Made by a program: the position numbers and the translations under genes. Below, piece by piece: positions 14,827 through 42,888 of a DNA stretch of 64,000 bases (the first letter of the stretch is position 1; every line of letters begins with the position of its first letter). The DNA comes from Terana coerulea. Taxonomy: Eukaryota > Basidiomycota > Agaricomycetes > Polyporales > Phanerochaetaceae. The notes below the pieces were generated by a model. It did no database searches. It saw only the letters and a list, made by a program, of their open reading frames with translations, and was not told the origin of the DNA. The stretch covers positions 186,001-250,000 of the forward strand of contig JAKOGH010000835.1 of NCBI GenBank assembly GCA_024811115.1. Direction: 5' to 3'.

Positions 14827-17774
14827 TCACTGCGCCGCGACATACTTCGTCAGCGTCGCGATCGACGGCGAGAAGAAGTACTCTCCGCCGCGCGGATCGA
14901 CAAACTTCTCCAAGAACGTCGTGTGCTCCACTGGCTTCTCGGGGTTCACGCCCGTCATGAAGCGGTTCTCCGTCGGCTCCTTGCCCGTCTGGCCGAACAG
15001 CGGGTCCCAGCCGGGCACGGTCGGCTTGTTCGGCGGGAAGTTGACGTCGTTGTACCAGCCTGTCGTATGCGCATTGTGTGTCAGGTAAAGGAGGATAGAG
15101 GGGGGAAAGAAGGCGGTGCGCACCGCATTGGATGTGCCGGAAGCCGCGGTCGATGCTGCTCTGGTATGCACACAGGTGCAGCCCGCGGTCCTCGACCGTC
15201 CCGTTCGCGCGCTCGTCGTCCGAGACTTCGGGGCCGTAGGGCATGTTGTGCCGCCGTATGCTGAAGGGATGCATCAGGAGACCGAACAATAAGGTAAGCA
15301 GAGGTGTGCGAGAGGGACGTACAGATGCTTGTGCCGCTCAGATTCGGGCACGTCGTTGCGCGGGTTCGACTTGCGCATGTGGGCCGCGAACGGACACTTC
15401 CGCTGGTCCTTGTCGTTCTGATCAAACTCAAAGTTGTTCACCCGCTTGTCGTCCTTCGCGATCTCCGGTGCGTCGTGGTCCGGGGACACGGATACCGCCG
15501 TACCTTGAGACGTGCCCATGTAATCAGCATGCAAGAGCGCCAGTCATGTCAGACAAACGCACCATTCTTCCAACGGCCCATCAACCTCGCACCCAGCTTC
15601 TTCGCCGCGTCGTCGGAGGCAAGGCTGGAGAACACCTTGACGCCCTCCCTCGCGAGGTACCCATCGAACTCGGGAACGAGGTTGTTGAGCTTCCGCGTGG
15701 CAATCAAGCTGCCGTCCTTCGCCCACTCCGGCCGCTGCGCCGCCTGCTCGTCGCCCTCGCGCCCCATCACAATAACACCAATCGGAATAATCGGCGTGCC
15801 CGCGTACCGGATCTCCTCGCCCGGATCCTTGGTCGCGTACGTGATGCCCTTCACCTGCGGGTTCGTGAACCCACCGCCGCGCCAGCCAAAGTGGTCGTTG
15901 ATGCCCTGCTCGCCCGGGCGCGGGTAGCAGTATAGTGACACGACTTTCTTGATACTCGACCGCTTCGGCCCGTAGCTGAACGCGGCCTCGAGCTCCTGGA
16001 TGAACTTGAGCGCGTTCGCGTTGTTGTACGCCGTGATCAGGAAGATGCCGTCGATGTTCGCCTTATACTCCGCGTCCCAGTCCGGCGACCAGCTGCCCGC
16101 ACGCGCCGCGCCCGCGTCCCCGAGCGCCTGCGCGTCTGCCAGCTGCCCGCGCGCGAACGCGGCGTCGCCGAGCTGCGCGGGGTCGAGCCCGAAGCGCTGG
16201 ATGCCCAGACTGGTGAAGGCGACGTTAAAGCCGAGGAACGGGTGGTTCGGGTTGTCGCGCGCGCCCGGCGGCGGGTCGTACACGAGCGTGTGGGCGGTGA
16301 CGATGCGCGGGAGGGCGAAGTCCCGGAAGGTCTTGCGGAAGCGGGCGACGTCCGTGATCTGGAAGTAGTAGAAGTACTCCAAGGCTTTGGGCAGGCCGGG
16401 GCTACATGCGATTTCCACAGTGTAAGCAGGCGCGGCGTAGAGACGCAAAAACAAACGCGCTCACAGGACGTCGCCCTGCACGTTCTTCAGGCCAAGCGGA
16501 TCGGGGTCCTCTGTTCTTTTGAACTTGACCGTCGTCACCCTGTCGGCGAAAGTTAGCTGCGATTTTCCACCACGATCTGACACAGGCGTACTGATCAGGG
16601 CTGGTATGTCCCGCTTCGTCGAAGACACTAATCTGTTAGACTCGTAAGCAAACGTATTTGGAACGCTTTTTCTATGACGGAGATTTACCTCGAAGACAAT
16701 TTCGTCTGCAGTGTCAGATTTCTGGAAGCTAGATTAACGCCGGCCGTTTTGCTGCAGCATACACCCACGTACCTTCACAACTGAGATACTCTTGGCAAAA
16801 GCCTTCGCCTCAATGAGCTTCGACCGCGCCTTCGTCTGGTCGCGAGAGGCGTAGAACGTGAGGGTGAGCTTGGTGTCCGCCTGGTGAGGTTGCATGATGG
16901 AGACTGTCGTGCCGTCCCGAGAATTGTACATGGCGCTCGGTTTCCCCATCGGTTCACGAGCATGTCCCGCACGCGACGCTGGTCTCGGGTGTAGTCCAGG
17001 CACACACCTTGGTTGTACGATTGCTTCGAAACCTGCCGGACAAGTTAGTTAGCTCCGACCGCAGAGCCGAAGGCGCTCACAGCCGCCGTGGAAGACCTAC
17101 GCTGCTGATAGTTGCGCTCCAGCCCGCTGGAACGGTCAAGACCTCGCTGGGACCATTCTGCGGACCAACTAGAAGAACAACGTTTGAGGGATGTATGTAT
17201 GCGCACGAAAAGAGCTCAGCGACTCACGAGGGCCGTCCGGCCGCTTTTCACCAGGCGAGGGCTTGTTCTCCGGCGGCTTGGGCTTCTCGTCGCCCTTGTC
17301 AGGCGGCTTGGGCTTGTTGTCGCCGCCGCCTTGATTGGGTGGCTTGGGCTTGTCCTTGTCGTCGTTCGGCTTGGGCTTGGGGCTCGGCGGCTTGGGCTTC
17401 TGTTCCGGCGGCCCTCCCCACGGTGGCGGTCCTGGTGGACCCCCCGGTGGACCCCCCGGTGGCCCTCCCCATGGCGGTGGTCCCGGCGGCCCTCCTGGCG
17501 GCCCTCCCCACGGCGGCGGGCCCGGCGGCCCACCCGGGGGCCCTCCTGGAGGCCCTCCCCATGGCGGTGGACCAGGCGGACCGCCCGGCGGACCTCCCCA
17601 TGGCGGCGGACCTCCCGGCGGCGGCCCCCTCTCCAGCCTGGCGGCGGCGGGCCTGGTGGCGGACCTCCTGTCCAGCCCGGTGGTGGTGGGCCTGGAGGCG
17701 GGCCCCATCCTGGAGGGCCGAAAGGTCTGCATGCCTCTCAGTACGGCGCATGGCACAGACGTGAAGCAGGACAT
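14827..17774 (-). CDS. DyP1: module + DyP-type peroxidase-like protein
   Basis: About nine exons. The N-terminus (17,774-17,230, start uncertain) is a Gly/Pro low-complexity tract built on GGPPGGPPGPPPWGGP, then a KPKPP-rich linker. The shared module follows (GPSEVLTVPAGWSATIS, intron, SKQSYNQGVCLDYTRDQ...LTFYASRDQTKARSKLIEAK, then ISVFDEAGHTSPDQ), running directly into the DyP domain start (LKNVQGDVLPGLPKAL). The proximal haem-ligand His (KCPFAAHMRKSNPR) and distal Arg (LIATRKL) are present. The catalytic Asp motif GxxDG reads GWRGG, so Asp is replaced by Gly. There is no signal peptide, so a cytosolic location is inferred. One base is missing relative to DyP2 near 16,940, which breaks the frame inside the module. 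The gene is therefore either an assembly error or newly inactivated. It is a close paralogue of 33749-36764. Confidence 0.8.
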
Positions 17775-18472
17775 ACGGTGGCATCTCAGAAAACTATGTG
17801 ATTTTGTTGAGGAAGATGTGCGACGGGAGTGTAAGTGGAGGGCGGTGAAGGACGTAGGGAACGAACGCAGAGAGCAACGCCGAGCTATGATAAGTATAAA
17901 AGACGACGAGGCAAGCACTCGAAGACTGCAGCTCCCGAGATGCCAATCGGCCGGCGGAGGGCTGGGCCCGAAACGTTCTAAGGAAGTCATCAGTCGGGAT
18001 GAATGCTGAATTCTCGTTATGACACTCACTTCATTTAGGACCCTGACTCGGCATCATATGTCGCGGTCATATGTTCGCGTCGTGGATGATACCGCGCGCT
18101 TCCCTGCATGCAAGGCCTCGACATACTAGCCGAAGCATGGAAGGTGCAGTCGCAGCAACTCACGTCATAACCCCGGAATGCCCACGTCAAGGTCGTGATA
18201 TGCACTGAGCAGCTCAGCGCTGATCAGCCACGTTTGCGCAACCGGGAAACAGCGTAAATATCCCGCCATTTTTGTTGCTGCCAATGCTGGATGTACTGCC
18301 GAAGCTAAGCCTGAAGCTGAAGATTAATGTCATTCTTTCAAGTGAATAGTAATGCGTCAATGGGGCGGAAACAGTATGATCCTCACTGTTACAAAATCAA
18401 GCGTGGAAGTAAACTAACATGTGCTGGCGTCGAATACACGCAGCATAGTAGGCAAGCCAAATAGGGCAGCGA
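17775..18472. other. Intergenic, vWA1 to DyP1
   Basis: This is the 5' flank of DyP1. A minus-strand frame extends the Gly/Pro reading frame upstream but has no coding character of its own. Nothing else is recognised. Confidence 0.35.
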
Positions 18473-20078
18473 CTATGGCTTGAGTGCTCGTACGTTGGGA
18501 TGAAGCCCACCCAGCAAAATCCTCTCCATCTTGTCAGGAGTGATGCTTCCAGGTCCATCGTACGGAACAGTATCAACCATATGCTGCAGCACCCACCGTC
18601 AGTTAATCCAGCACAGCGCGACATTAAGTGGTAGGCGCACCCCTGTTTCGAGCTTCGTGAGCTTCTGCAGCGCCTCGTGCGCGCCCTTGTCGTGGCCGAT
18701 CTGGACGAACTGGATGCCCATCCAGTTCGGGTGGTGCTCTTCGCCCTGAACTCGGCAGAAATCTCGACGAGCATCTTGCCCAGCTCCGCCGACGCGTCGT
18801 CCGCTGTTTCACGCGTCAACACCGCTGAGAACACGGCGACGGCAGAGAGAGGGAACAAGACGCACTGGGTACACCGTCGGTGATGCAGATGAGGTCTAGA
18901 GGCTTGATCTGCGCATAGCCGGGTTTCCCGCCGAGGCTGTCAAGCCGGGCCAAGAACTCCCGCATGCGCTCCGCGACACGTTTCCCAGTCGGCGTCCCAC
19001 CTGCGCACAGGGCATTGAGAACTCGACACGAGGGGTAGCATGAGGCGAAGACATACCATTAGGCGAAACCTTGCCGATCGCTTTCGCTACCTTCGGCTTG
19101 TCCTGCAAACCACCATCTGATCAACTCCCTGCCCTCGAAAGCTGCACAAAGCAGGACGCGCCTGTACACCCCGAATCTCCTCCCGAAACTTAAACTTCTC
19201 GTTCGAGTTCAAGAAATACAGATCAATCCCGTTCGCGTCGTAGTCCACCGCCTTGCTCGCGATCCCGATCAACGCGTCCGTGAGCTCCTTCCACTTGTTG
19301 TCGTGCTGCATCGAGCCCGAGTCGTCGACGAGGAACGCGGTGTCGTAGTACTGCAGGTAGTTGTCGATCGTCGCCGGGCGCGGCAGGTCCAGCACGGGGT
19401 TGTACCCCTTCTGCGTGTCCTCCGGCACCAGCGGCGGGATCGGGTTCGGGTTCGTCTTGCGGAAGACGAGCGTGGCGAGCACGTCGCCGTACTCCCCGCC
19501 GGCGCCCGCGTTCGCGATCGTGTCGCGGCCCGTGTGCACCTTGTACTCCGACGGTTTCCTCCTTCTGGGCCCCTGAAGCTAGCTGTGGTGGGGTCTGCCG
19601 GCGCGGTCAGCTATGTTGCTGTCTTCGCATCGCATGCGACGTAAAGGACTATATGCCGTACCAGTACGACTTCGGCGCGTGGCGACAAGTACTTGTCGTT
19701 CTTCAGCTTCGCGAACGTCACGCTCCGGTCTTCAGACGAATAGAACGCGAGGTTGATTTCGAACGCGTTCGATTGCTCCCTTCAAGACGTAAGTCGTATT
19801 TCCGGAGCGCAAGTCCTTCATCTGGTCGTTGATCTTCCCGTACGGACTCGCATAGTTTCCGGTAAGACCATGTATAGACGGGTTCACAGCCATGAGTTGA
19901 CTGAAAGACTTTCGGGAGACCTGCATGCATCGCGTAGAAAAAACGTAAGCTCAGTCATCGCAGAAGCGAGCAAAGGGTTCGATGCACGCACCGCGGATAT
20001 CGTCGTAGACCAGTCTGGAGGCACGCTGGCCTTGACTTTCGCATTGCCCGCCGCGGTCACCGTCGGGCGTGCTGGCAT
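18473..20078 (-). CDS. vWA1: module + von Willebrand A domain protein
   Basis: Exon 1 (MPARPTVTAAGNAKV...VPPDWSTTIS) and exon 2 (VSRKSFSQLMAVNPSIHG...FEINLAFYSSEDRS) form the shared module. They are followed by a vWA domain with a complete metal-ion-dependent adhesion site: DDSGSM near 19,310, Thr in GGTPTGKR and Asp in LICITDGV. The tail ends MVDTVPYDGPGSITPDKMER, then ILLGG, stop at 18,473. There is no signal peptide. Two frame breaks (near 19,765 and 18,745) and a GC donor after RGVQ disturb the reading frame. The remaining exons stay conserved with vWA2 (41334-42888). It sits between DyP1 and the stand-alone module gene in the same orientation. A role as a metal-dependent binding or scaffold partner is inference. 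Confidence 0.7.
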
Positions 20079-20820: not shown

Positions 20821-21483
20821 TTATTTGGTCTTCTGGAACAGCTGGATCAAACCGAGACTATGTCGATATTGCGCGCCACCGTTAGCTATGTAGGAGATCA
20901 TATAAAACTTGCAATACATACGCGTCGGTGAAGGAATTGTTTGCGGGTTTGTCTTCGACAAAGATGAAGAACGTGATCGTGTCTGAGCCTTGATATGTCC
21001 CCGCGCCTTTATCCGCCTGTGCAAACACATCTTCACAAAAGCTTCACTTCGAAGCGTTGGTCGAACATACCTTGATGACTTGGACTTTGCTCGAACGAGT
21101 ATTCCCCGCGACAAGAGCTTCGCCGTTCCTAACCCTGTTGGACGAGTAGAAAAAGTCGACGTCCACGGTAAGTTCCTCGTCTTGAGGGACTACAGGGAGA
21201 GACGTGTTCTCATTGACTGTGATTTTCATCTGCTTTTCCGGGGGCTTGGCGACGCCATTTGCACTGTAGAAGATGGCCTCGTTGCGGTCGCCCATGTAGT
21301 CAAAGGCGACCTGCATGCCTTGGTCGTACTCCTTGCGACCTATCTGCCAACCGACGTCAGTATGACATAGACATATACAGGTTATGGACAATAGCTTACA
21401 CAGCTAACCATGGCGAACCAGCCAGGCGGCAGCTTCAGCACGACCTTGCTGCCTGAAGGGTTGGCGATCGTAGGTCGAGACAT
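20821..21483 (-). CDS. Stand-alone copy of the shared beta-module
   Basis: Four exons give a protein of about 165 residues. Exon 1 is MSRPTIANPSGSKVV plus LKLPPGWFAMVSC. Exon 2 begins IGRKEYDQGMQVAFDYMGD and contains VPQDEELTVDVDFFYSSNR and SKVQVIK. Exon 3 is ADKGAGTYQGSDTITFFIFV plus EDKPANNSFTDA. Exon 4 is LGLIQLFQKTK, stop at 20,821. All frames and splice sites are intact. It corresponds piece for piece to the N-terminal module of the amine oxidase, DyP and vWA proteins, including the intron after GWFxxxS, but no catalytic domain follows. There is no signal peptide and no membrane segment. It could be a free partner or competitor of the fused modules, or the ancestral donor. I know no family name for it. 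Confidence 0.7.
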
Positions 21484-22931: not shown

Positions 22932-24658
22932 ATGGCACCTCTCACCTCAAGTATTTGCGTCAGATGCTCGCAAGCGTTCGAATGGCTCTCCGGTATCTCC
23001 TTCGTCTCCAAGCTCCTGATCTTCGTGGGCTTGGTGTTCGCGGTCATCCACTACCAACTCTCGTGTCCCCGCAAGCTCCGTCATCTCAAGCGCGTCTCCC
23101 CATACAAAACACTTTGGTCTTATGCAATCCGCGAGTCTGTGGACCAGCGCATCCGGCGGCTCATTCTTCCCTTCGCGGAACAAGGTGAAGGAGCTGTCGC
23201 CGTTTACATGCTGGGCAAGTGGGGCGTGCACCTCCTCGATCCGCATGTAAGTATCTCTCGCCCTGTTATCCGTCACACAATGAGAATCTTACTGTGTCTG
23301 CTAGCTGATCCGCACGGTCTGCCTTAACGGTGACCGATTCCCCAAGAAGAAACTATCAGGAACACCTGCACTTCACGTTCCTCAGCGGCCCCAACGTCGT
23401 ATTTTCCAACGGCGAACAGTGGAAGCGTCATTCCGCGTCCGTCAAAGCTGCCTTCGACCGCGACATTCCTGTCCACATCTTCGCCGATCTCGCCACGGAA
23501 GTGTTTGACCGCATCGGCCACGGTGGAGTGCACCGATGGACGGAGCTCATGCAGGTCAGCGTCTACATCGCATTCTACGGGTAACGCGATGCTGATGTTT
23601 CTGCGCAGCGGTACACGCTCGATGTCGTCGGCAAAGCGGCGCTCGGCCACAACTTCGACGCCATGGCCGCCTCCCCCGGCTCCGAGCTCTCCTTCGTCAG
23701 CCACTTCAACCGCGTCATGTCCGGCATCGCGACGCCCGCGCGGCTCATGTTCCCGGTCCTGGACACGCTCTTCCCCCGGCAGGCCGTCATCGAGGACCTG
23801 AACTCGCTCAACGCACGCTACGATGCGCTCCTGCAGGAGAAGCGAGGGAAGCCGGGGCGGGACATCCTCAGCTACCTGCTCGAAGACGCGTCCTTATCGC
23901 ACGAGGAACTGCGCTCCAACCTGTCCATTTTGTTTTCCGCGGGTCATGTACGTAGCCTCCCTCACTTCGTCAAACTCTCGTACTGAGCCATCATTTCCTA
24001 GGATACCACTTCGGGCGCGCTCTCGACCGCCGTCTACTACCTCGCGCGCCACCCGGCCCTCCAGGCGCTTGTGCGCGACGAGGTGCGCTCCGTGCTCTCG
24101 GCGTCCGACGCGGAACCCACGCTCGCGCAGCTGAAGGCCCTGCCCCTCCTCGACGCGACCATCAAGGAGGCGCTCCGCATCAACTCGCCCATCTCGCTCC
24201 TCCCCGCGCGCGTGTGCGCCGAGGCCGCCGTGCTCGCGCTGCCGGACCACCGTGCGGCGTACGCGATCCCCGCCGGCGTGCCGATCGTGCCCAACGTCTA
24301 CGCCGTGCACCACCACGCCGGGCTGCACCCCGACGAGGCGCGCTTCGACCCCTCGCGCTTCCTCGCGGCGCCGTCCCCCGCGCTGCAGGCGATCCCTGGG
24401 ATGGGCGGCACGGCGCTCGTGAAGACGGGCGCGTTCATCCCGTTCGGCACCGGCCCGCGGCAGTGCACGGCACGCCAGTTCTCGCTGTTCGAGCAGCGGA
24501 CGCTGCTCGCGATGCTGCTTGCGCGCTACGAGTGGGCGCTCCCGGAGAGGTCCGAGCACGGCGACAGGCTGCACAATGAGTTTGGGGCGTTTGGGCTGAG
24601 CATCCCGCATGAGCTGGACATGGAGTTCAGGCTTTTGGAGGCTGAAGAAGAGGCTTAG
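22932..24658 (+). CDS. Cytochrome P450 monooxygenase
   Basis: ER-anchored haem-thiolate monooxygenase. The N-terminal membrane anchor is at about residues 19-40 (SGISFVSKLLIFVGLVFAVI). The I-helix motif AGHDTTSG crosses an intron at 23,949-24,001, the ExxR motif is in IKEALRINSP, and the haem loop is PFGTGPRQC, so all catalytic signatures are present. Introns are seen near 23,250-23,305, 23,553-23,608 and 23,948-24,001. One frame change near 23,345 (between NGDRFPK and HLHFTFLSGPNVV) is needed to join exon 2. The substrate is unknown. It is divergent from the module genes, with the amine oxidase gene converging from the other side, and could belong to the same oxidative cluster. Confidence 0.85.
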
Positions 24659-25153: not shown

Positions 25154-27856
25154 CTAGGGAGGCGCGGTCTTACCGTGCGTCTGCCCGCCGATGATGACGA
25201 CCGCCTCCAACAGGCGGGTGTCCCACTCCTCCGACGCGCCCCAGAGGTCCGTGAACTTCTTGATGATGTCCTCGTTCGGGTTCGGGTTCAGCTCCGCGTG
25301 CGCGATGAGCATCCCGAACACGGAGCGCCACGCCGAGTTGAGCGCGCCCGCGACCCATCTGCACCACGCACACATGAGCAACAGACCCAACAGAAGGAAA
25401 CAAAGAGGGCGCACCCGTGGAACGTCGACGTCGCGTCGCCCGCGAAGTGGACCCGCTGGTGCTTCGACGCCGGCTGCGTCACATACGGGTAGTTGTACTT
25501 GAACTGGCCCGGCCCGAACTGGCAGAACGCGCCGAGCTGGAAGCTGTCGCGGTAGAAGTCCCACGGGTAGTAGTCCTCGAGCTCGGCCCAGAGCATGTCG
25601 ACGTCGACGCGGTGCAGTTTCGCGAGGTTGCGCATGAGCAGGTCGAGCATCACGCGCTCCTCGGGCGAGTCCTTGCCCTTCATGAGCCCGCCGAGCCGCT
25701 GCGAGTCCTGCATGCCGTTGTACGACGCGATCATGCAGTTCGACTTCTGGCCCTTGGCCCGGTGCGAGTCGTCTGGGCCGTAGCTTCAGAATACACAGTC
25801 AGCGAGACGTTGACATGCGCGCATATAAGGGAACGTACGAGGGATAGACGACGTCCCGGATCGGCATATCCGTTGACGACTGCCCACCGACGATCCCGAG
25901 ATCCTCCCACCACGGCTTCTTGAACTGCATGCCGACCTTGACGCTCGGCGTGTACATCAGCTCGCGGATCGCGTTCTTCTGCCCGTAGTTGAGTCCGGCC
26001 TTGTCGAGGTCGACCATGCGCAGGCACGCGAAGGACATGGTGCTGATCACGTTCGAGTACTTGCGCGTCGTGACGCGCTGCGCGCGCGGGTTCGGGTTGT
26101 CGCGCCCGTCGAAGGTGACCGTGATGCTGTTCCCGTCGTCCGTCTCCTCAATGATCGTCACGCGTTGGTAGAGCTCCGGCTTGGTCTTGATCCGTTCCGT
26201 CATCGCGCGGTGGACGACCTCGGAGCCGCCGCTGCACAGCACACAGGTGAGCACACGGACGCATGGTATCAGAAACAGACACGCACTCGAGACAGAACCA
26301 GTCGATGGTCTTGCCCTTGAAGTTCGGGTCCATGAACACCAGCGACGCGAGCACCGTCTCCGGTCAGGGACTCGTCCAGCAGGCCCGTCCGCGACTCGGC
26401 CGCCTCGAACCAGCTCACGACGTCCGCCGGGTACTTGAGCACCTGCGTCAGGTACGTCCGCACCGAGTACGCGTCGTAGTCCATGAGCTTCTTATACGCC
26501 ACCTCGAACGTGTGGTCGACGAAGAGCTGGCGCATCGGCGCGAGCGCCTCGTCCCACATCTGCGAGCTGCCCTTCGCGACGTACTCCGCCGGCACGTTCC
26601 CGCCGTTCGACTGCGAGACCTTGAAGATGTCGTCCGCGCCCTGGGCCTTCGCGTTCTCCGCCTTGGTGACGGTGATGTCGTTGTAGCACATGAATGCGTT
26701 GTCGTTCCCGCGGATGTACGGGATGAAGAGCTCGGGCATGCCGAGGCGGTTCCGGACGAGGTCGAACGTGCGCTTCATGAACGTCGTGTTGGGGTAGCGC
26801 ATGGCACCGACATCTGCGTTGCCCGGAAGTTAGCGAGAGCGGGGTGACGTGCATACAGGGATAGTGGGATCATACCATAGTATTGGTATTTGCCTTGGTT
26901 CTTCGGGAAGTAGTGAGTGTACAACCGGCCGCCAACCCTCCCAGACCCCTCCATGATCTCGTAGTTGATGCCGAGAGAATCCAACATCATCGCAATGTAC
27001 AGGCCGCATACTCCAGCGCCAATGATGCCGACGGGAAGATTTTTGAGAGGAGGCGGAGGGTTGTACGGCGGCGGACGCGTAGGATAGGGCTCGCCGGGGC
27101 GGATGTAGCGATCGAGGAAGTCTTGGATTGCTTGTTTGCCTTGCTCGGTCAAGGCGCCTGTGCCGGTGTCCACCTCCGGCTCGGGTTGAGTCTCGATGCC
27201 GTAGACGGAGTGGATGGTGAGGACGAGGTCGTCGAAATTGCCCTGCCCGGGTTGGGTGTGGGTCGCATCCTCCACAAATATCTACGGGAAATATTGGAGT
27301 CAGCCATGGGGTGTGTGCGCTGGACGTAAAGCATGCGTACGACGGCTGTCATGTAATCCGGCAGTTCCGCTGGCGCATCGTCAGGCTTGTTGGACTGGAT
27401 TGCGCGCGGTCAGTAAAAAAATGGTTGCTTCAAACTATGCCACACGCACGATGAGAGGACGAAACGCTTGACTCGCGTGCTTCGGGTCTTCAAGCCTTCT
27501 TCCGGAGAGGGCTCTCTCATTCGAGTAGTAGATGCTGAGCGTCAGGGGGATGTCTTCATCTTGAGGGACGAACGTGACTTGTTGCGCGCCGGAGTCGATG
27601 TCGAACAGGGTCTGGTTACGAGACTGCCACTTGTTGGTCAAGTACCTTGTCTCGGTGTCCCCGAACTGAGGCCATTGAATGGCAACGAGCTGGTTGTAGT
27701 CCCGCCGGCTGACCTGCACTACCGTCACTCCCCGAAGTTATACAGAGTCACATATGAAGTGCTTACCGCTGAGATGGTTGTGAACCAGCCCGTCGGCAGG
27801 TCCAGCTTGAAGCTGCTGCCGTCTTTGGAGGTGAGGGCGGGTCGGCGAGTTGGCAT
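25154..27856 (-). CDS. Module + flavin amine oxidase (L-amino-acid oxidase-like)
   Basis: Exon 1 (MPTRRPALTSKDGSSFKLDL then PTGWFTTIS) and exon 2 (VSRRDYNQLVAIQWPQFGD...LTLSIYYSNERALSGR) form the shared module. It ends with IFVEDATHTQPGQGNFDDLV. Then comes a Pro-rich hinge (RPPPYNPPPPLKNLP) and the FAD-binding fold: VGIIGAGVCGLYIAMML (GxGxxG), an acidic MEGSGRVGGR, DVGAMRYPNTTF, and the C-terminal flavin motif RVHFAGDATSTFHG, then WVAGALNSAW. Such oxidases deaminate amino acids or amines, releasing H2O2 and ammonia. The substrate is not readable. One extra G near 26,360 breaks the frame before TVLASLVFMDPNF. There is no signal peptide. H2O2 production beside the DyP-like genes suggests a functional link. 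Confidence 0.85.
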
Positions 27857-27904
27857 GCTCGAGGTTCAGTGGTAAGGACTGTCGACGCGTTGAAGCCCAG
27901 CCCG

Positions 27905-27915: not shown

Positions 27916-27919
27916 TCCG

Positions 27920-28509: not shown

Positions 28510-29308
28510 ATGATGCGTTGATGCGCCATCATGAGTGTAGCGCCCACAGGGATGCATGCTAGCTTGCTTGTGCTTTGCGGCTTCGTGGCGTTTGAGTCGA
28601 CCACCATACCGCTCAACAGCAATTTCTCCATGGACCCACCCATCGTTTCGACTGAGCCTCTCTCTCTTGAACCCATCCTCAATTTATTCATTCAGCCCTC
28701 CCGTAAAGAAGCACCCCACCTCCCACTCGTGCTGCTCGACCTGATCTTTGAGCCACTGTTGAAGGACCACAACAGTCTGGCATCGTGCGCTCGTGGCAAG
28801 CGTTCTTATCCACGCGCATGTATACGCACATACTCGTCGGCGAGATTTCGAGGACAGGGTCGATGGGGACCTGTGCCACAAGTCTAGAGAAGTTGTCGAA
28901 TATGTTAGCAGCCTTCCCAGAGGTGTGTGGGGTGGTCTGGACGCTTCGCGTGTCATGGCCCTGCAGCATGCAACTATTGAACGGAATGCTTAGCAAGCTG
29001 CCTCGCGCACACGCCATCAGCCTCTGGTCGACATACAGGCAAAAACTGCCGGACAAAGAAATCGCGAGTGCGCGGGACGTTGGTCCCGGAGACATCGTTG
29101 GGGACAGTCGACCATCTTCTAAACATATCACGACATTCCCTCTTCTACAAAGCGAGTGTGGTGTTCCATACACAGGCTCGCTTCTATGGGGAGTTCATCG
29201 AGCGCTTCGGGCACACCCACGCGCTGGAAATCCACTGCGGTCACCTCGCTTATGGCCTTGTTCCGCCAAATCATCACGACAGCTTGCGCCCTGCTGTTGT
29301 TGACGTGC

Positions 29309-29380
29309 TCCATACTCCTATCTTCACCCATATGCCACGAAAGTAATACTTCTATCTTTACCCATATGCCACGAAAGTAA
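29309..29380 (+). repeat. Tandem 33 bp direct repeat
   Basis: Two adjacent near-identical units, actcctatcttcacccatat... and acttctatctttacccatat..., each end in gccacgaaagtaa. They mark the left edge of the insertion in the F-box B copy. Confidence 0.7.
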
Positions 29381-31320: not shown

Positions 31321-31326
31321 AAGCAG

Positions 31327-31496: not shown

Positions 31497-31499
31497 CGA

Positions 31500-31902
31500 G
31501 TTTTGTGATGAGATAAGAAGGTAGACAATCCTGTGATCGTTCTCGGCTCACTGGCAATTCAACGTAAGCATGTAAATCGTACTCAATCTATACTACACGC
31601 TGCAAGCTTTACTTAGCTCATAAACGCGTTTCATCATCTCTGTCTGGCTCACAGCGTTGGTCCATGAAACACAAGCGTGTCACACCATAGCAATCTAACG
31701 AAACAGAACGAAGGATGAGTCCTTTGGATTTCTCACGCCACAAAATTCAAAACCTGTTTTTGGTTGTTATTCCCACGGACGCTTGGAGACGCTGAGTCTA
31801 CGAGGGCGGCTCTTTGTCGGACCACCATCCCGAGCGACCTTTAAACGACCTCTCAGAACCCTCCACAACCACCAATCTGCTTGCTTCCGCTTTAATCTCA
31901 AG
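31500..31902. other. 5' flank of F-box A copy
   Basis: No gene is seen. The final part is the upstream region of the F-box A copy. The long frame there opens before the ATG at 31,903 but lacks conserved coding content. Confidence 0.4.
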
Positions 31903-32792
31903 ATGCCAAGATCGAAAATTCTCCTGGACTCGTTGCCTGAGGAGCTTCTGGACATGATCCTCTACCACTGTTTCTACGTCCCCTCATCCTGCTTTTTCGA
32001 GGACCACATCCCACCCGAACCCGACACCGAATTTGAGAGCCGCCCGCCTTCGTTCGTTGGGGACATCCTTTGTGTCTGCAAGGACTGGCATCGCCTCGGC
32101 AAAATCCACCTCTACCGTTCCGTCTGCATCCGCACGGGCTCCCACGCACGCGTAGTCGCCCAGCAGGTGAAGGCTAACTCTGCCACGCTTGGCCGCGCCT
32201 TACGAAATCTGAGACTTGAGGGAGGATATGGAGATGACCTCTTCATCATTGCGAAGTATGCTCAAAACTTGCACGCGGTATACATATCAACGCTCTACCC
32301 GCCACTCGGTTATTACGGAGGTCTGCGTTTTGCGGTCCCGCGTATGCATCCAGTACAAGTATACATCCACAGTCGGGATACAAATCGAGGCGGGCACGGA
32401 GAGTTACTTGCGTTAACCCGGTCATTGGTTGAGCAGTCGTCTGCGTTGGTGGGTACTCATAACGTGTACTGCAAGCTACATCACTAACGCCTGCGGACGT
32501 GGATAGAACTTTGTATACATCGTGAACATTGATGCCGACTTGTCTGAACCATTGATAGAGGCTTTCAAGTCAGCGCCTTCGCTTCAGACAATCTCAATGG
32601 ATTGCTGTATTCTCACCCGAGACACCAGTCTGCAGGCTGTGCGTCGCATATGCTAGTCATCGAGTCTCCGAAAAATCATCGCTCGGAGAACCACCAAGTG
32701 CAACTCCGACCACGTCAGTCAGCCCTATCCTGAAAAAGTCGCTGACCTCATTGAGGTTCGGCCAGTTGCTGCCCCTCATGCTGCTAGTATGT
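31903..32792 (+). pseudogene. F-box A copy with premature stop
   Basis: A mirror copy of F-box A: MPRSKILLDSLPEELLDMIL, CVCKDWHRLGKIHLYRSVCI, VVAQQVKANSATLGRALRNL, an intron of about 60 nt ending at gatag near 32,512, then NFVYIVNIDADLSEPLIEAF and SLQTISMDCCIL. At 32,654 the codon equivalent to CAG (Gln in RMCQSSSLRK) is TAG, so the conserved SSSLRKIIARRTT end is not translated. It could still make a truncated protein that retains the F-box. Confidence 0.75.
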
Positions 32793-33748
32793 GATTCAAG
32801 CCGATGTGTTCTATCTGAGTTACTTACTATCTGCTTAGAGGACCGGCTACACTGAACATACAGTAGCGGATCAGGAGAGATGCCGTTACAGCGATGTCCT
32901 GCTTCTATTTGAAGATAAGGAGTGATCGTGACCAGAGACGCAACTATTAACATCAACTTTTCGTATGGGAGTGCATGGCTTAGTGCGCGTCATGGTACTT
33001 GCTACCCATTATTTATTGTTCTCAGTTTCTGTATGATGCGATGTGAGTCAAGATGGCTCGTGCATGAAAAGACTGATGCACCAGTGCGTGATAGAGCAAG
33101 ATTGATTTGTAATGTTCCCTCATTGTGCGTACGCGATTGATCAGCTGTACAGTGCATATCAAGCGTTTGACGTGGGCATTGCGGAGTTATGATTTGAGTT
33201 GTCGCCACCATATCTTCCATGCTTCGGCTAGGTTCTCAGGCCTTGCACACAGGGAAGCCGGATACATCTCCACAAACCCGAGGCCTGGTCGAGGGAATTC
33301 TCTCAGACAATTGGAAGACATAAGGTCTCATTCACCGTTGGAGGATTTGATCGTGATGGATGACAGCATTCAGGGTCCTATATGAAGTGAGTACCAGAAC
33401 GAGCCTGCAACATTCATCCAGCTAACTACTTGATCACAGTGATTCGGAGTCAAGCCCTCGCCGAGTGATTGGCACGCTTGGGAGCCGGAGTCTCCGGATG
33501 TACGGCTCATGGTGCAACCAATACTTATCAAAGGCTACAGCTTGCCTTCGCGGTCTGCGCTCGCGTTCCACATCTTTTAAGGCCCTCGACCTGCTTCTCA
33601 ACTGCACGTCCCACCCACCACAAAAGTGATTCGCCTAGATGCCACCGTACGCCCTCTGTCGTGTCCGCGTCATGTGCCGCCCTGACTGCTCTGCAGACCG
33701 TCTGCTCCTCCGGGCTGGAGTTCGCCGCCAGGCCCGCCACCGCTCGTC
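32793..33748. other. Upstream region of DyP2
   Basis: No conserved gene is seen. The plus frame from 33,469 overlaps the DyP2 start in another frame and becomes a shadow of its Pro-rich tract. Confidence 0.35.
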
Positions 33749-36700
33749 ATGAAAGCACAGTCTCCTTCCAGTGCCCCTCCTGGTCCCCCGCCGCCTGCAT
33801 CGAAAGGGCGGCGGCTACCGCAGTGGGGTCCTCCGTATTGGGGCCCGTCACAGGAAGGCCACAAACCCTCAGGCCCGCCCAAGTCTCCCACCCACCCGCC
33901 GTTCTTCGGTCCTCCGAACTGGGGTCCGCAGCAGGAAAGCCACAAACCATCCGGGCCGCCAAAGTCTCCTACCCACCCGCCGTTCTTCGGTCCTCCGAAC
34001 TGGGGCCCGTCACAGGAAGGGCACAAACCCTCAGGACCGCCCAAGCCTCCCAGTCATCCGCCGTTCTTTGGCCCTCCGTATTGGGGACCGGCGAAGACGA
34101 ATCGCTTGAGCACTGGGTCACCACCGCCGCCCGGAGACGTACCAGGCAACGGCATCGCTGAGCCGCTCAACAAAAGAGAGGACGACAAGAAGCCGGAAAC
34201 GGAGCATAATCCTACGCCTTACGAGAGGCATCCGGGTGATTCTCGTAAGTGATCCGAAACATTGCTGACCACACAAAATATTGGGCTCATCTCCTCGACT
34301 TGTAGTCCGTTCGCACGGGACGGAATATAAGCCTACGCCAGGCGAGAAGCGGCCAGATGGTTCTCGTAAGTGACCGAGCCAATGCCAATGACCACATAAA
34401 ACATTGAGCTTATCTCTTGGTCTTGTAGTCGGTTTGCAAAATGGTCCAAGTGAATTTTTCGCCGTTCCGGCTGGTTGGAAAGCCACTATCAAAAGTGTAC
34501 GTCCGTCCTCAGGATCCTTATCTAGGATACAACTTATCTAGGATACAAACTAACGAAGTGGCTCCACAGATTTCGAAGCAATCGTACAATCAAGGCGTCA
34601 GCCTCGACTACACTCGAGATCAACGTCGTGTTAGAAACATGCTCGTGAACCGATGGGGAAATCCAGGGGCCATGCACAATTCCCAGGACGGCACCACAGT
34701 TTCTATCATGCAATCTCATCAAGCGGACACTAAGCTAATATTCACGTTCTATGCATCCCGCGATCAGTCGAAGGCTCGGTCGAAGCTTGTTGAAGCGAAG
34801 GCTTACTCGAAGAGCATTTCTGTCACGAAGGTGTGTAGTCACAAGCCATATTGACCTGGTCATTGTTAATCCATTTTCTAGACATCTGAAAATGCAGATG
34901 TGATTGTGTTCGAGGTGATTATTCATCATACAAAACACACTTCGAATTAATTTACCTATGAGTTCAACAGATCAATGTTTTCGACGAGGCAGGACATACC
35001 AACCCTGATCAGTAAGTCAGCTTTCGGTTGAGGCAAAGAATTACAACTAACGGCGTGGAAAGAGTGTCGATTATAGAATTTAATAGGGTTGAGAACCCTG
35101 ATCCGCTCGGCCTAAAGAACCTGCAAGGTGACATTCTGTGAGTGCGCGCATTTTGGAGATTTAGTACATGCTTGCTTATATCCCAATTCATGCAGTCCGG
35201 GCCTGCCCAAAGCACTGGAGCACTTCTACTACTTCCAAATTACCGACGTCAATCGCTTCCGCAAGACCTTCAGAGATTTTGCCCTGCCGCACATCGTCAC
35301 CTCCCACAAGCTCGTGTACGACCCGCCACCGGGCGCGCGCGACAACCCGAACCACCCGTTTATCGGGTTCAACGTCGCCTTCACCAGCATCGGGATTCAG
35401 CGATTCGGCCTCGACCCGACACAGCTCGGCGACGCCGCGTTTGTCCGTGGCCAGATGGCTGATGCGCAGTCGCTCGGCGACGCGGGCATCGCGCGCGGCG
35501 GGAGCTGGTCGCCGGACTGGGACGCGGGGTACAAGGCGAACATCGACGGCATCTTCCTCATTACAGCCTACAATAACGATAACGCGCTCAAGTTCATTAA
35601 GGAGCTCGAGGCGGCATTCAGCTATGGACCGAAGCGGTCGAGCATCAAGAAGGTCGTATCACTATACTGCTACCCACGACCGGGCGAGCAGGGCATCAAC
35701 GACCACTTTGGCTGGCGCGGCGGCGGGTTCACGAACCCGCAGGTGAAGGGCATCACGTACGCGACCAAGGATACGGGCGAGGAGATCCGATACACGGGCA
35801 CGCCGATTATTCCGATTGGCGTCATTGTCATGGGGCGCGAGGGCGACGAGCAGGCGGCGCAGCGACCGGAGTGGGCGAAGGACGGCAGCCTGATCGCCAC
35901 GCGGAAGCTGAATAATCTGGTGCCCGAGCTCGATGCGTACCTCGCGAGGGAGGGCGTCAAGGTGTTCTCCAGCCTTGCCTCCGACGACGCGGCGAAGAAG
36001 CTGGGTGCGAGGTTGATGGGTCGGTGGAAGAACGGTACGTTTGCATTGCATGACTGGCGTTTTTGCATGCTGATTACATGGGCACGTCTCAAGGCACGGC
36101 GGTGTCCGTGTCCCCGGACCACGACGCACCGGAGATCGCGAAGGACGACAAGCGGGTGAACAACTTTGAGTTCGATCAGAACGACAAGGACCAACGGAAG
36201 TGTCCGTTCGCGGCCCACATGCGCAAGTCGAACCCGCGCAACGACGTGCCCGAGTCTGAGCGGCACAAGCATCTGTGCGTCTCACGAACTCTTTCTCTTG
36301 TCACTCAGTCTGCTGATGTACACCTTCAGCATACGACGACACAACATGCCTTACGGTCCCGAAGTCTCGGAAGACGAACGCGCAAACGGGACGGCCGAGG
36401 ACCGCGGGCTGCACCTGTGTGCATACCAAAGCAGCATCGAACGCGGCTTCCGACACATTCAATGCGGTATGAACCTCCCTATGCCTTCTTGTCCTCGGAT
36501 GTGCCTCATCTAATACATGCATGTTCCCCAGGCTGGTACAACGATACCAACTTTCCGCCGAACAAGCCCACCGTGCCAGGCCACGATCCTCTGTTCGGCC
36601 AGACGGGCAAGGAGCCGACGGAGAACCGCTTCATGACGGGCGTGAACCCCGAGAAGTCGACAGAGCACACGACATTCTTGGAGAAGTTTGTCGACCCACG

Positions 36701-36764
36701 CGGCGGAGAGTATTTCTTCTCGCCGTCAATCTCAACGTTGACGAAGTATGTCGCGACTCAGTGA
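33749..36764 (+). CDS. DyP2: module + DyP-type peroxidase-like protein
   Basis: All frames are open. Exon 1 (start MKAQSPSSAPPG, tentative) holds about three tandem copies of a roughly 27-residue Pro-rich unit around SGPPKSPTHPPFFGPPNWGP. A short linker (YKPTPGEKRPDGS) leads to the module (GPSEFFAVPAGWKATIK, intron, SKQSYNQGVSLDYTRDQ, FTFYASRDQSKARSKL, then INVFDEAGHTNPDQ). The DyP domain follows from LKNLQGDILPGLPKAL. Haem-ligand His (KCPFAAHMRKSNPR) and distal Arg (LIATRKL) are kept, but GxxDG reads GWRGG, lacking the catalytic Asp. The terminal exons are IRRHNMPYGPEVSED..., CGWYNDTNFPPNKPTVPG and TLTKYVATQ, stop at 36,764. No signal peptide. This is the most complete of four DyP-related loci here. 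Confidence 0.85.
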
Positions 36765-37009
36765 TGATGGTGCTCGGGTTTGACGAATGGGGCCGTTTGT
36801 TTGCTGTATGTATGCATATGTACTGCTTGGGCGTTGTACTGGAAATAATGGATGAGAATGTCAATGGAGAGCCTTTGAGTGATCTCAGGGACTACGACCG
36901 TCGTTATGTATGACGTGAAGAGAGCGCAATGCTATTCAACTCATGAGCGATGCATGGCATTAGTTCAAAAGAATGAAGAGTCAATCCAATTTTGCGTCGA
37001 TCATGCAGA
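36765..37009. other. 3' flank of DyP2
   Basis: A short intergenic stretch with no recognised feature. Confidence 0.4.
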
Positions 37010-37585: not shown

Positions 37586-37913
37586 CTCCCGAGAGCGCTA
37601 GGACGGGACCCCGCAGACCACACAAGAGGTAGCGGTTGTAGACGCCATGAGAGGAAGCCAGAGACGTCGCCCTGCAAACTTGCCATCGACTGAAGGGCGT
37701 CGATGGCGTTGTGGCGTCGGTTCTATCCGAGCCTAGAAACATGCTAGGCGTAGCGGAAGATTCCGCAAAACGAAGGTACGTACGGGCGTGGGCATGCAGG
37801 AGAGTGCACACGGATAACCTCATATTTTTTGAGAGATAAACGGCTAGTCTGTATAGCTGCATTATGCCATAAGTCGTACAATACTAAATGCATCACGCTC
37901 AGCAGCTAGGACT
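37586..37913. other. Intergenic
   Basis: Nothing recognised in this stretch. Confidence 0.35.
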
Positions 37914-38712
37914 TCAAGATAACGCAGCGTTGTCAACTCGCAGGTCGGACGACTTCAGTTTGCTGGGCCCTCTGAAAAACATGAACGGGTTCAGAGTGCC
38001 GTCTGAGTAGTATAGGTATATTTTGACGTACCGTAGTCGAATACGAGAGTTGCATAGAACTTCTGGCCATCTGCGGCGGTGAAGTCAGCGCGCCTGACGT
38101 ACCTCCTCTCTCCATCGATGTCCTGAATGCCCCAAGCCTACGGCCGCACGGTTAGTCTCCATTCTCAAGCCATTTGAAACGGTATTCAATGAACGTACCA
38201 CAACGGAGGTCCATCCAGCGCTGCTCTTGCTCTCCACATTAATGAGCACGACGCCGTCCTTCTCTGTCGTGGTGTCCCAGCCAGCCTGCATGCCAGCACC
38301 CTGCAGCTCCGCAACGGACACGCGCTGCGCAGTGACAGTCGTCGGACCAAACAGCCTGCTCTCGGCCTCGCGCGGCTCGCCGTCGAGCACGCGCACCTCC
38401 TCGGAGACCTTGCCTTCGCCGGCACCGCCGACGAGGCTGTGCTCGACCTCGATCGTCTCGACGTCCGCGGCGGGGTTGTGGCGGACGGTGAGCGAGAGTG
38501 TCGCCGTCATGACAATGTTGACGAGCGGCTCCGGCACTTGCTGCGCGGCAAGAGAATGGATAGCTGATCGGCGTCGGAGGAGAGGGACTTGTTCTACGTG
38601 AGGAGTATGTGTTACTGACTGTTATGAGATGGTGGAGACGACTAGGGTGGGTGCGCACCTGGACATACTTGCCACTCAGGTCAAGCGTAGTCATCGTGGT
38701 GGGTACAGCCAT
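37914..38712 (-). CDS. Lipocalin-like small fungal protein
   Basis: Exons: MAVPTTMTTLDLSGKYVQ, intron, NKSLSSDADQLSIL...EPLVNIVMTATLSLTVRH and VETIEVEHSLVGG...WDTTTEKDGVVLINVESKSS then AGWTSVV, intron, AWGIQDIDGERRYVRRADFT then AADGQKFYATLVFDY, intron, GPSKLKSSDLRVDNAALS, stop at 37,914. The pattern LSGKYVQNKSLSxDxDxIL, then beta strands, a TLTGG-like turn and WGxxxIDGxRRYxRxxxFT matches an unnamed calycin-like fungal family that I recall near biosynthetic genes. Fold and ligand binding are inference. One base is missing near 38,545, between SIL and AAQQVPEPLV. It faces the aldehyde dehydrogenase/MFS side of the window. Confidence 0.6.
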
Positions 38713-38792
38713 TGCGAGTGCTAGAGAAGAATTGTCTGGAAGGGCGAAGAGTGCAGATGATTGTTGTTGGATAGTACGATGGTCGATGAGGG

Positions 38793-38800
38793 TATTTATG
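38793..38800 (-). promoter_or_regulatory. TATA-like box of the lipocalin-like gene
   Basis: On the minus strand cataaata lies about 80 bp upstream of the start at 38,712. Confidence 0.4.
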
Positions 38801-39459
38801 CCAGAACCTTGTGGGGATATGGCCGTGCGCTTTATGTCATGGGCCTGTCTTGCTTGTCGACTAAGACGTCTTGGGGAGATTGTATAGGAGCCAAATTCGT
38901 CTAAACATGAGAATCACTCACGTGAAATGCGATTAAACTTACTCGCAGCGCCGAGTATGGGCAACTAGACACTTAGCGAGAGCGAGTGCCTCCATGAGTG
39001 ATGACTCCAATCCGATGCCCCAGCCATTGGCTATGTCGAACCAGACGAATTATGCAGAGCTACCTGTGGCAAAGACTCCCCACAATGAACGCGTGAACCT
39101 TGACATTGGTTTGGATACGCCACACGCCACACACTGGGCGTTGGGGTGACAAATGAAATTCAGGCATCGTTGACATGCCACATCATCTCTTCTCAAGACC
39201 GGGGACAGGATAGCAGTGACAGCAACATTATCAATGGCCCAGTGTGAAGCGGTCTAAAACATGGATAAGTGATTTAATAATGTATGCAATGATACTTCGG
39301 TCTGAATTTGCGTCCCGCGCATGCATCTGTAGAGCATTTTCTTTTCACAATCCTAACAATGTTTAGAAAGATATGAGTAGCCATTGAGACCCAGAACATT
39401 GCACTACTTGCCTTGCTAATAGTCTGTGATACAACAAGAAGGCCTTGCGGGTGCATTGC
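38801..39459. other. Intergenic
   Basis: No gene, RNA or repeat recognised. Confidence 0.4.
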
Positions 39460-40542
39460 TCAAGGATAACCGGCCATGATATCAGCCATAAAGACAAGCT
39501 GGGGAGGAAAGGCCATGAAGAAATCATCATCGTCGTCAAAGTCTGAATCCGACGAATAGTCAGATCCGTCGTATGCCGGGAATGAAAGGGCTTCACTGCA
39601 AGACAATGGTCAGCACGACTTTGGGCGGTGTTGTCGGATACGCACTCTAGCTGGGAATAGTTCTCATAACTAACCATCTTTCTAACATGTTCAGGATAGG
39701 CTAACTCTTCCATACAGTTGGGGACTCCACTCTGCGCCTCAGGTCTCCCAAGTACATGGATTTTTCGAATGGCGGCATTCTGAGAGATGATGTCCGGGAC
39801 GCTATCGTTATGTTCATCCATGAGTGCCATCAGCGACAGTTCGTCTATCCAGAGCTCCTCAATGCTGCAGGCGGTCTTGAGCGCCGTGATCATCGGCGCA
39901 CGGAAGGTGTAATATGGGTTGAAGTGGACATGTTTCTTCACAGCGACGGAATCACGGGGAGGCTTCAGATGGGGTCTACGGCGTGCTCACCAAATTCGTC
40001 CACTTCACCATGCTGTCCGCCAGCGCCTTCCGCAGCTCCTCGGTCTTTTTGTTGCGCGGCGCAGGTCGGCTTTCGATGAACAAACTGGCCGGGTTCAGGA
40101 GTGGCAAGACCTTCTTCAGCCCAGCGATGCTGTCCGCGCTCTTCACGCCCGTATACAAAAACACCGTCTCCAGCCGCATCGCCCCCTTCAGCACGGTGTG
40201 TAGGTCACGCCCATATCCTCCCAGTAGCTTGACCTGCCGGACCCCGGCGCCCAGCCGCGGGTTTGTCTTGAAGAGCACCGTAATTGCCCGCGTCTGCTCG
40301 GTGTTCTCGATCGCGAGCGACGAGTAGAGAAGAGGTGTACCAATGCGTAGCCAGCATTTCGAGACCAGTAAGATGTGATGTGCCTTTCGTGCGTTGACGG
40401 CGTCGCTGTCCCGGCGTCGTCGCGGAGAGCATAATGGCAAGGCAAAGCGTGACGGGAACCCGCAGAAGTCTTCCGGCGAGACGAGAAGGCAATAGCTCAG
40501 TATTTCGCGTAGCAGCTCCTCAGGCAGTTTCGACAGAGACAT
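39460..40542 (-). CDS. F-box protein C
   Basis: The start at 40,542 (MSLSKLPEELLREILSYCLL) puts the F-box at the extreme N-terminus, followed by AHHILLVSKCWLRIGTPLLY. The middle (VLFKTNPRLGAGVRQVKLLG, LETVFLYTGVKSADSIAGLK) is leucine-rich-repeat-like. Exon 2 begins KKHVHFNPYYTFRAPMITAL. Exon 3 is a strongly acidic end (YDGSDYSSDSDFDDDDDFF then MAFPPQLVFMADIMAGYP). All exons are open. It is a close paralogue of the gene at 46106-47184 with the same three-exon structure. It presumably acts as an SCF adaptor with unknown substrate. The acidic tail is unusual for a fungal F-box protein. Confidence 0.75.
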
Positions 40543-41333
40543 GTAGACGTAGTGAACTGGAGAGCAAGAGGACGGTGGTAGACACACGAAAAAGGAGCCG
40601 CGTCCCGCTCAGAGCACGCGCGTGATGGTCACGGAAATGGCGTGGCTGTGACATGGTGACCCAGTGACGGCGCTACCTCCGGCCCGGGCCGCCGGTGCAA
40701 TACAACACAACTTTGGCACAACTGTCACTCTCACCATCGCCTACCTCCATACTCAAACTCCTGGCTATGCTCTATCATCGGCAAAAACTGTGTATGATAC
40801 GCTTTGAACCAGTTACATTGCACTTCGACTCACGGAACTGGACCTGTATGAGTCACGCTTCATTCCAGTACAATCGAAGCACACCTGCCACTTGGAATAG
40901 CGAAAGCTTGCTACTCTATTCAAACTTATCTATTCCAAGGGGACAGTCCTTATTTTTACAGCTTGAGAGGCCGCGGATATGCACATACTTGTAAGTACTG
41001 GTATTGTGCTGGCATAAATTCCAAGCAAAGTTCGCTGATCTCTTTCCCAGGTGCTGTGACCTTAACGCTCATCGATTCGCGCGCAGACCCTTTCCAAGAC
41101 TCACATGCACGCCAAACCAGCCTACGCTGCGCCAGTGACAGGCAACGTGGTTGCCTGCTGTCTTCTCAAATGTGCCGCTCGACTCTGTCTTTCACAACTC
41201 TCTGCTCGTGAACTAGAGACAATAGTCGACCTTCGCCACCTCTTTAAATCAAGACGGTGGGCAAGACACTTGAAGTTACAATCATAGAATTTGTCTGCAA
41301 CATTGCTGCACCTTTATCCATTACTATCACGCG
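40543..41333. other. Intergenic between divergent F-box C and vWA2
   Basis: 790 bp with no convincing gene. It presumably contains promoters for both flanking genes. Confidence 0.4.
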
Positions 41334-42888
41334 ATGACTGGTCCCCCGAATATCTCCGCTACTCCTAGAGCAGCGAAAGCTGCCCTTACAGTGCCCCCCT
41401 AGCTGGCTCACCACAATCTCTGCGGTACGTGACATTCACAAGTTCTATTTTTGCTTCCACTCAATTGCAGCGCTCATCATGTACAGATCTCCCGCAAGTC
41501 CTACAGCCAGCTCGTGACTATCGCACCCTCCATCCGTGGGCGAGCAGGTTACTTCGTGAGTCGATACGGAACCTTGAACGTACCGATGAGGGAGTTACGT
41601 TCCGGGGAGGCGACATTCACCATTCAACCTCGGTCTGCGCCGCTAGACATCAAGCTGGCGATTTACTACTCGGATGACAAGAGCCTCACTGCCGCGGGTC
41701 TGATTGCCCAAAGTCACTTGTCGTCACGACTTACCGTCACTCAGGTACGCTTCCAGTCTATTATAGTTATCGAGAGCAGTGACCAACCATCGACATTCAG
41801 ACTACTCGCCCTGGAAGGTTAGACCCCGAAGAAGAAGTCGTTGAACTCACGCTGTATGTTGGGGATGCCCCCAGTGGCCGTCCGGCTGACTGGAATGACA
41901 ATGACCTCATCATCACCGTCCGCTTCGACCGCAATCCGAACCCAAACCCTTTCCCGCCTCCTCCTCCAGCGGGTACACTCCCAGGGTACAACGACGTTTT
42001 GGACCGCCCGCGTCCTGCAACTATCCAGAAGTACCTAAAGTCCTACGACACAGTACTCCTCATCGACGACTCGAGATCGATGGAGCTCGAGAACCGGTGG
42101 GAAGAGCTCACGAATGCCCTGATTGGGCTCACGAACAAGGCAATCGACTATGGCGCAGACGGAATGGACATTTACTTCCTTAATTCACGCGAGAGATTTA
42201 AGTTCAGAGACGAGATCCGCGGCGTTCAGGTACGTATTTCCACTAGTCGTTGGGCTTAGCTCCTACTGACTTCCATGACAAATGCAGGATAAACAGAAGG
42301 TGGCTCAGACATTAGCAAAGGTGTATCCGAGAGGTGCAAGTCGAGTTGCGTGGCGGCATTCGCCGTGGTAATTGACCATTTTCTTTACGTGGCAGGTGGA
42401 ACGCCAACTGGAAAGCGAATTTCAGAGCGCACGAGAGAGTTCATGGATCGTCTCTACGATGTAGCGGGTACCGCCAAATACTCGCTCCTCAAGCCTCTTA
42501 ACCTCGTCTGTATCACGGACGGCGCTCCCTGTACGCCTCCTATTTGCTGTCGTGTGCATCTGTTTGTTGATGGCTCGTCCATATAGCACGCGATGACTCT
42601 CCAGCTCTCACCCGGGTGCTCATAGAGCTTGCAGAAGAGCTCAGGGAGAAGCACCACCACCCCGGCTGGTTGAGCATTCGGTTTATGCAGATCGGGCACG
42701 ACGAGGAGGCGAAGCACGCTTTGGAGCGGCTCATGCTTATCGACACCGGGGTACGTGCACGAAAAATGATTGTGGAATAAGTTACTCACACTGAACAGCA
42801 GAGCATGGTCGATATCGTGCCATACGATGGGCCGGGCAGTCTCACAGCAGAGAAGATAGAGCGAATACTGCTGGGTGGTAGGTATTGA
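41334..42888 (+). CDS. vWA2: module + von Willebrand A domain protein
   Basis: Exon 1 (MTGPPNISATPRAAKAALTV, then PSWLTTIS) and exon 2 (ISRKSYSQLVTIAPSIRGRA...DIKLAIYYSDDKSL) form the shared module. It ends with LTLYVGDAPSGRPADWNDND and LIITVRFDRNPNP. The vWA domain has DDSRSM near 42,066, GGTPTGKR and LVCITDGAP, so the three metal-site loops are present. The tail ends MVDIVPYDGPGSLTAEKIER, then ILLGG, stop at 42,888. A run of six C at 41,394, where five would keep the frame, puts a TAG into exon 1 just before SWLTTIS. Every later exon is open, so this single base decides whether the gene works. No signal peptide. Confidence 0.75.

Follow-up and report, generated by a model that had tools for sequence, protein, structure and literature searches.

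We analysed a window of 64,000 nucleotides from the genome of Terana coerulea (contig C652, positions 186001-250000, in an assembly of 48.4 Mb and 896 contigs). By sequence comparison, one homologous module is carried there by six clustered genes. It is joined to three unrelated partners, namely an L-amino acid oxidase (LAAO), dye-decolorising peroxidase (DyP)-like haem proteins and probable vWA proteins, and it also occurs alone, in a protein that we call solo. The exons were first read by hand and afterwards modelled with a purpose-written spliced aligner guided by the window proteins; for DyP-A, the start exon was assigned in the sequence on the model of that of DyP-B. The module was followed with two profiles: A2, built from nine modules of this genome, and A3, a hidden Markov model for which other fungi supplied 22 oxidase modules. 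The genes of the cluster and the mapped modules are the following.

14827..17784, minus strand: DyP-A, proline-rich N-terminal region, module and DyP-like haem domain (spliced model)
16773..17168 (about), minus strand: first and core exons of the DyP-A module (spliced model, A3 profile, intron alignment)
18482..20078, minus strand: vWA-A, module and vWA domain, with frame breaks
20882..21483, minus strand: solo, module alone, 163 aa in three exons, frame intact
22932..24658, plus strand: cytochrome P450, hydrophobic N-terminal stretch, no module, one frame break (by eye)
25154..27856, minus strand: LAAO, module and L-amino acid oxidase, 8 exons, one frame break
27450..27856, minus strand: first and core exons of the LAAO module (spliced model, A3 profile)
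27341-27394 and the start of 26876-27281, minus strand: remainder of the LAAO module
33639..36764, plus strand: DyP-B, 12 exons, intact, about 210 mostly proline-rich residues, module and DyP-like domain
34429..35011, plus strand: DyP-B module (hand model, A3 profile, hhalign)
41334..42888, plus strand: vWA-B, module and vWA domain, with frame breaks

The module genes contain many short GT-AG introns, a structure that, like the mushroom origin of the closest oxidase relatives listed, points to a basidiomycete. The frame is open throughout in DyP-B and solo and broken in DyP-A (once, in the module core exon), vWA-A, vWA-B and LAAO. Single-base breaks were frequent in the window between 14.8 and 42.9 kb, the P450 included, as well as in three further contigs with module genes (C372, C444 and C874), and intact copies exist. 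The breaks differ several times between near-identical contigs, which suggests assembly errors.

The original prediction held that six genes begin with one module, and recovery of the others by a profile of one type had been set beforehand as the check. The A3 profile, derived from oxidase modules, recovered all the other module genes among 3542 six-frame open reading frames (ORFs), which covered the window and C874 in full and parts of C372 (10 kb) and C444 (30 kb). Every listed match at E<=1 fell inside a module gene, and the same ORFs with shuffled residues gave zero matches. In the window the values were 9e-26 for LAAO, 6e-17 for vWA-B, 2.5e-14 for solo and 6e-11 for DyP-B; vWA-A (1.8e-5) and DyP-A (2e-4) were matched in pieces because of their frame breaks. 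Profile pairs aligned with hhalign gave 3e-14 for DyP-B, 6e-14 for the DyP of a second cluster described below, 1e-25 for solo and 2e-33 for the vWA protein of the second cluster, while the best of 26 controls (4 reversed, 12 shuffled, 10 unrelated domains) reached E 0.016. The search for relatives in other species was aimed at the oxidase. There, in the reverse direction, A2 found the module in 23 of 107 oxidase relatives at E<=1e-3 among the matches listed. Twenty of these were named and belong to Mycena, Phlegmacium, Phanerochaete, Hypsizygus, Lyophyllum, Agrocybe, Volvariella, Asterophora, Crucibulum, Coprinopsis, Sphagnurus, Infundibulicybe, Serendipita, Piloderma and Leucoagaricus, all of which we take to be Agaricomycetes. 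Protein searches started from solo and from a 9-row module alignment returned one fragment each.

The module was present at all six places, at the N-terminus in four only: both DyP genes carry it internally, and the proline-rich region ahead of it in DyP-B is encoded by 81-bp repeat units at 33827-34090. The predicted intron directly after a common motif was borne out, the motif reading P-x-[GDE]W. It lay after the same residue in 17 of 17 aligner-made models (five of the six window genes, the near-identical contig and the second cluster), in agreement with the hand model of DyP-B. Its phase was 0 in 16 of the 17, vWA-B being one base off because of its frame break. Since in the second cluster the aligner located the vWA core-exon end poorly, what we say of the models there is limited to this first intron. 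A common ending of the module was not upheld: the ends vary, and D-[YF]-D-D is missing from that of the DyP type.

The predicted fold of the oxidase-type module was that of the PA-IIL/LecB/thrombocorticin lectins, and PA-IIL-type chains headed the structure search. The prediction covers the oxidase type, to which the other types are tied by profile. Fungal fruit-body lectin, actinoporin and aegerolysin folds, considered by eye, were dropped when PA-IIL-type chains ranked first, which does not by itself exclude those families. A viral structure library gave no match at E<=0.001. The Pfam family of these lectins, PF07472, matched none of 22 module members at E<=1 and none of 9 at E<=10; it had no match in the Terana genome and one, under the cut-off, in a control genome. 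The oxidase module and the vWA protein were likewise without a match in NCBIfam.

The module was then compared with PA-IIL, the register being deduced from strand order. Its acidic loop is longer by about seven residues, and S-R-[KR]-x-Y is conserved at the place expected for the specificity loop. The acids of the acidic loop appear partly retained in the oxidase modules and altered in the DyP type. In PA-IIL the C-terminal Gly114 of a neighbouring chain is described as joining the site (PMC1903359, in excerpt), whereas the module C-terminus continues into the enzyme. No free C-terminal carboxylate for a neighbour's calcium site was found in the five fused window modules, where the chain enters the partner, and solo ends 12 residues past the D-A of the last strand. 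The calcium and sugar site looks remodelled, so that classical calcium-dependent binding of fucose or mannose would not be required. Instead, modules may bind one another, much as PA-IIL-type lectins associate into dimers or tetramers; descriptions exist of a PA-IIL tetramer and a thrombocorticin homodimer (excerpts of PMC1903359 and PMC9700728).

In fungi, PF07472 lectins are reported, in the excerpted text of PMC10481521, from two ascomycete genera only, Metarhizium and Hirsutella, and the module would add a group of this fold to the basidiomycetes. The likeness to them probably lies in the fold class; those lectins belong to PF07472, unlike the module, and the same excerpts mention no such fusion for them. 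The original prediction knew of no described family joining these parts, and none was found in Pfam and NCBIfam scans or in the open-licence literature as far as its texts were available in part, nor did that literature yield an account of the module itself, of its fusion proteins or of the gene cluster. The fold is a known one; for the divergent module, for its partners and for the cluster there seems to be no earlier description.

With respect to the partners, the DyP domains were readily matched: DyP_N at 1.5e-30 in the main exon of DyP-A, and both D-type domains in DyP-B (DyP_N 3.6e-34, Dyp_perox_C 5e-6), whose nearest PDB sequence is an ancestral D-type DyP (2.6e-107). Aligned to the latter, the cluster DyP retains AAHMRK and GRWKNG, in which we take the His of AAH to be the proximal His and the Arg of GRW the distal Arg. 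The distal Asp of GxxDG is absent, the motif reading HFGWRGGG or HFGYRGGG in 5 of 5 cluster copies (near-identical contigs counted), while a DyP gene on C24, outside the module matches, has GFLDG. The predicted haem protein therefore stands as a DyP-domain protein, not as an ordinary peroxidase. It differs further from D-type DyPs by the proline-rich region and module in front, and no hydrophobic N-terminus was seen in it, in contrast to the secretion described for mushroom DyPs (PMC10512322, in excerpt). Other pieces of this family were observed: a broken relative with the same Asp-less RGGG motif at C231:2001-2800, outside the module matches; an apparent fragment similar to the DyP C-terminal part at window 2668-2847 (minus strand); and an apparently further divergent DyP gene, also similar to the C-terminal part, at about 46.3-47.2 kb of C444.

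The flavin amine oxidase domain was present in LAAO. For its copy in the second cluster, Amino_oxidase matched at 2.1e-34 and the nearest PDB sequence was Hebeloma LAAO4 (3.5e-86); the solved oxidases nearest to LAAO are Hebeloma LAAO4 and L-lysine oxidases. Hebeloma LAAO4 and the other solved fungal L-amino acid oxidases lack the N-terminal module. The putative activity, judged from the family, would convert an amino acid to an imino acid and hydrogen peroxide (H2O2). Two oxidase-related stretches about 2 kb apart, with 35-39% identity, were also seen at C5:726-730 kb, outside the module matches.

The predicted vWA domain matched Pfam VWA in all three members tried, weakly: the best E was 5.3e-5, and one member scored 15.7 bits against a cut-off of 23.8. 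Among PDB sequences the domain had no match at E<=1, and the best hit for a profile of three vWA domains was unrelated, at 0.054. The claim of a metal site fits the residues visible in all three (DDSGS or DDSRS, GGTPTG, TDG), at the D-x-S-x-S, T and D positions of the vWA metal-site motif. A crude hydropathy scan found no strongly hydrophobic N-terminus in the module proteins, and together with knowledge of the families this points to a putative cytosolic location.

Searches of the whole assembly with the module core exons gave 34 matches, with places partly repeated, all on C652, C372, C444 and C874. Taking into account that window 32-42 kb has a 97.7% copy in C372, and C444 one of 93-96% in C874, there are two loci in the genome. 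The second one, on C444, reads as follows.

24.9-26.5 kb, minus strand: vWA1
27.4-28.0 kb, minus strand: solo1
28.9-31.0 kb, plus strand: P450
31.6-34.2 kb, minus strand: LAAO
35.8-36.4 kb, plus strand: solo2
37.2-38.8 kb, plus strand: vWA2
42.8-45.2 kb, plus strand: DyP

The proteins of the two loci are 49-73% identical, and the series vWA-solo-P450-LAAO has identical order and orientation at both. The P450 (last exon p450, 1.3e-38) is conserved between solo and LAAO; in this genome, among 19 scored candidates, a fragment of it matched nothing but the copies in the clusters at E<=1e-6. All 16 vWA matches of the genome also lie within the clusters. When the ORFs of 84 kb around the window were compared with all 86 kb of C444 (E<=1e-8), the shared content was limited to the module genes, the P450, an F-box-like family and, towards one end of each stretch, a short block. 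Within C444, the pairs vWA1-solo1 (about 24.8-28.3 kb) and solo2-vWA2 (about 35.5-38.9 kb) are inverted duplicates of each other, with about 77-81% identity, on either side of the P450 and LAAO, as seen by comparing C874 with C444.

In the module tree the vWA, solo and DyP modules grouped by partner across the clusters and not by locus (support 98/93, 98/99 and 100/100). These fusions would thus predate the doubling of the cluster, with no sign of recent swapping. The exon shuffling that had been proposed must be limited accordingly. The tree did not unite the oxidase modules in a single clade (20% of bootstraps; 2 changes); that of the second cluster fell among Mycena modules, apart from the window's, with moderate support.

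We tentatively favour, at somewhat below an even chance, that the shared module is a common tether bringing together the oxidase, the DyP-like haem protein and the probable vWA protein. The module, of predicted lectin fold, would bring them to one glycan-bearing site or into one assembly; the oxidase would yield imino acid, ammonia and H2O2, the H2O2 and imino acid would be consumed on the spot, and the P450 would probably act in the same pathway. Such local use of the oxidase products is suggested by the lectin-fold tag together with the haem partner and the conserved P450. What the data themselves show is the homology of the six modules, the predicted oxidase-type fold, the restriction of module matches to two loci in the assembly, the P450 kept between solo and oxidase at both and, in many further mushrooms, an oxidase fused to the module. 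Several points weigh against it: one module type only was folded, and a common fold would by itself demonstrate no function; several window copies have frame breaks; without its distal Asp the DyP domain may not use H2O2 at all; and the Mycena grouping may give one locus a history other than simple duplication. It is improbable as a whole that a LecB-like module without classical calcium-sugar binding recruits the oxidase, an Asp-less DyP, the vWA protein and a membrane P450 into an intracellular amino-acid-oxidising machine of mushrooms. A mushroom L-amino acid oxidase common in public records now has a predicted fold for its N-terminal domain, for which no covering Pfam family was found and which is linked in this genome to a conserved set of partners (haem protein, vWA protein and P450). 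Should the tag bring its partners together, it would explain how hydrogen peroxide could be safely made and used inside fungal cells, and may point to a metabolite or defence so far unknown.

Two explanations are serious rivals to co-localisation. One is a glycan-targeted oxidative defence: the proteins would be cytosolic, and when a hypha is ruptured by a grazer or microbe the module would fix the oxidase to foreign glycans, with H2O2 formed at the target. It is unlikely in our estimation, but the predicted lectin fold and the hydropathy scan are consistent with it. Mushroom L-amino acid oxidases are described as antibacterial through their activity, and no effect was obtained with I. geotropa culture medium, from which the authors conclude that the oxidase is not secreted (excerpts of PMC7248570). 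The I. geotropa enzyme is however smaller (66 kDa) than a module fusion, the calcium-loop residues vary among module types, and the P450, the vWA protein and the Asp-less DyP are left unexplained.

The other serious rival, to which we give the same low probability, is a biosynthetic cluster in which the oxidase would convert an amino acid to an imine, which would be coupled or oxidised by the haem protein and finished by the P450, the module being a plain assembly domain. An amino-acid oxidase, a haem protein and a P450 act together in the bacterial bisindole logic of RebO, RebD/StaD and StaP (PMC10784701, in excerpt). Here the three are also encoded together, the P450 is kept at both loci and confined to them in the above search, and the DyP keeps the His and Arg in all cluster copies that lost the Asp. 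On the other hand, the nearest solved oxidases are Hebeloma LAAO4 and the L-lysine oxidases, and vWA and solo lack a counterpart in the bisindole pathway; the RebO-RebD-StaP haem protein is of another family, and a lectin-fold module is not known from that pathway. The aldehyde dehydrogenase and transporter genes that adjoin the cluster (below) have no counterpart on C444.

It is less probable again that the module serves only for homo-oligomerisation or stability and was passed on as adjacent genes were duplicated, the partners never meeting. The oligomers of PA-IIL and thrombocorticin and the grouping of vWA, solo and DyP modules by partner agree with this, which leaves unexplained why four protein kinds keep the module at the same two loci only. 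Finally, a dying cluster with the module as a relic is very improbable: 4 of the 6 window genes have frame breaks and the second-cluster DyP has one common to C444 and C874, but LAAO is broken on C874 and open on C444, vWA2 is the reverse, the vWA-B core is split on C372 and open in the window, DyP-B and solo are intact, splice sites are kept, and assembly errors are likelier.

Two sets of genes adjoin the cluster and were dropped as members, as C444 holds no counterpart.

43585-44593, minus strand: aldehyde dehydrogenase exons
48296-48847, minus strand: MFS transporter exons

Members of the F-box-like family surround the module genes and also occur among them, at window 3207-5807, 28522-29346, 31699-32487, 39363-40608 and 46289-47241, with relatives beside the second cluster at 3.6-5.1 and 12.6-14.6 kb of C444. 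Two members were compared with Pfam (one above and one below the cut-off) and the others were assigned by similarity or by eye. Pieces at window 9425-10362 (minus strand) resemble what we take to be a hAT-kind DNA transposase. It was also possible to see by eye, at 60527-63702 (plus strand), a long Ser/Thr-rich open frame with repeats and, after it, a hydrophobic stretch; it may encode a sensor at the cell surface. A tRNA gene at 50833-50914 (minus strand) was the sole Rfam match at the gathering threshold.

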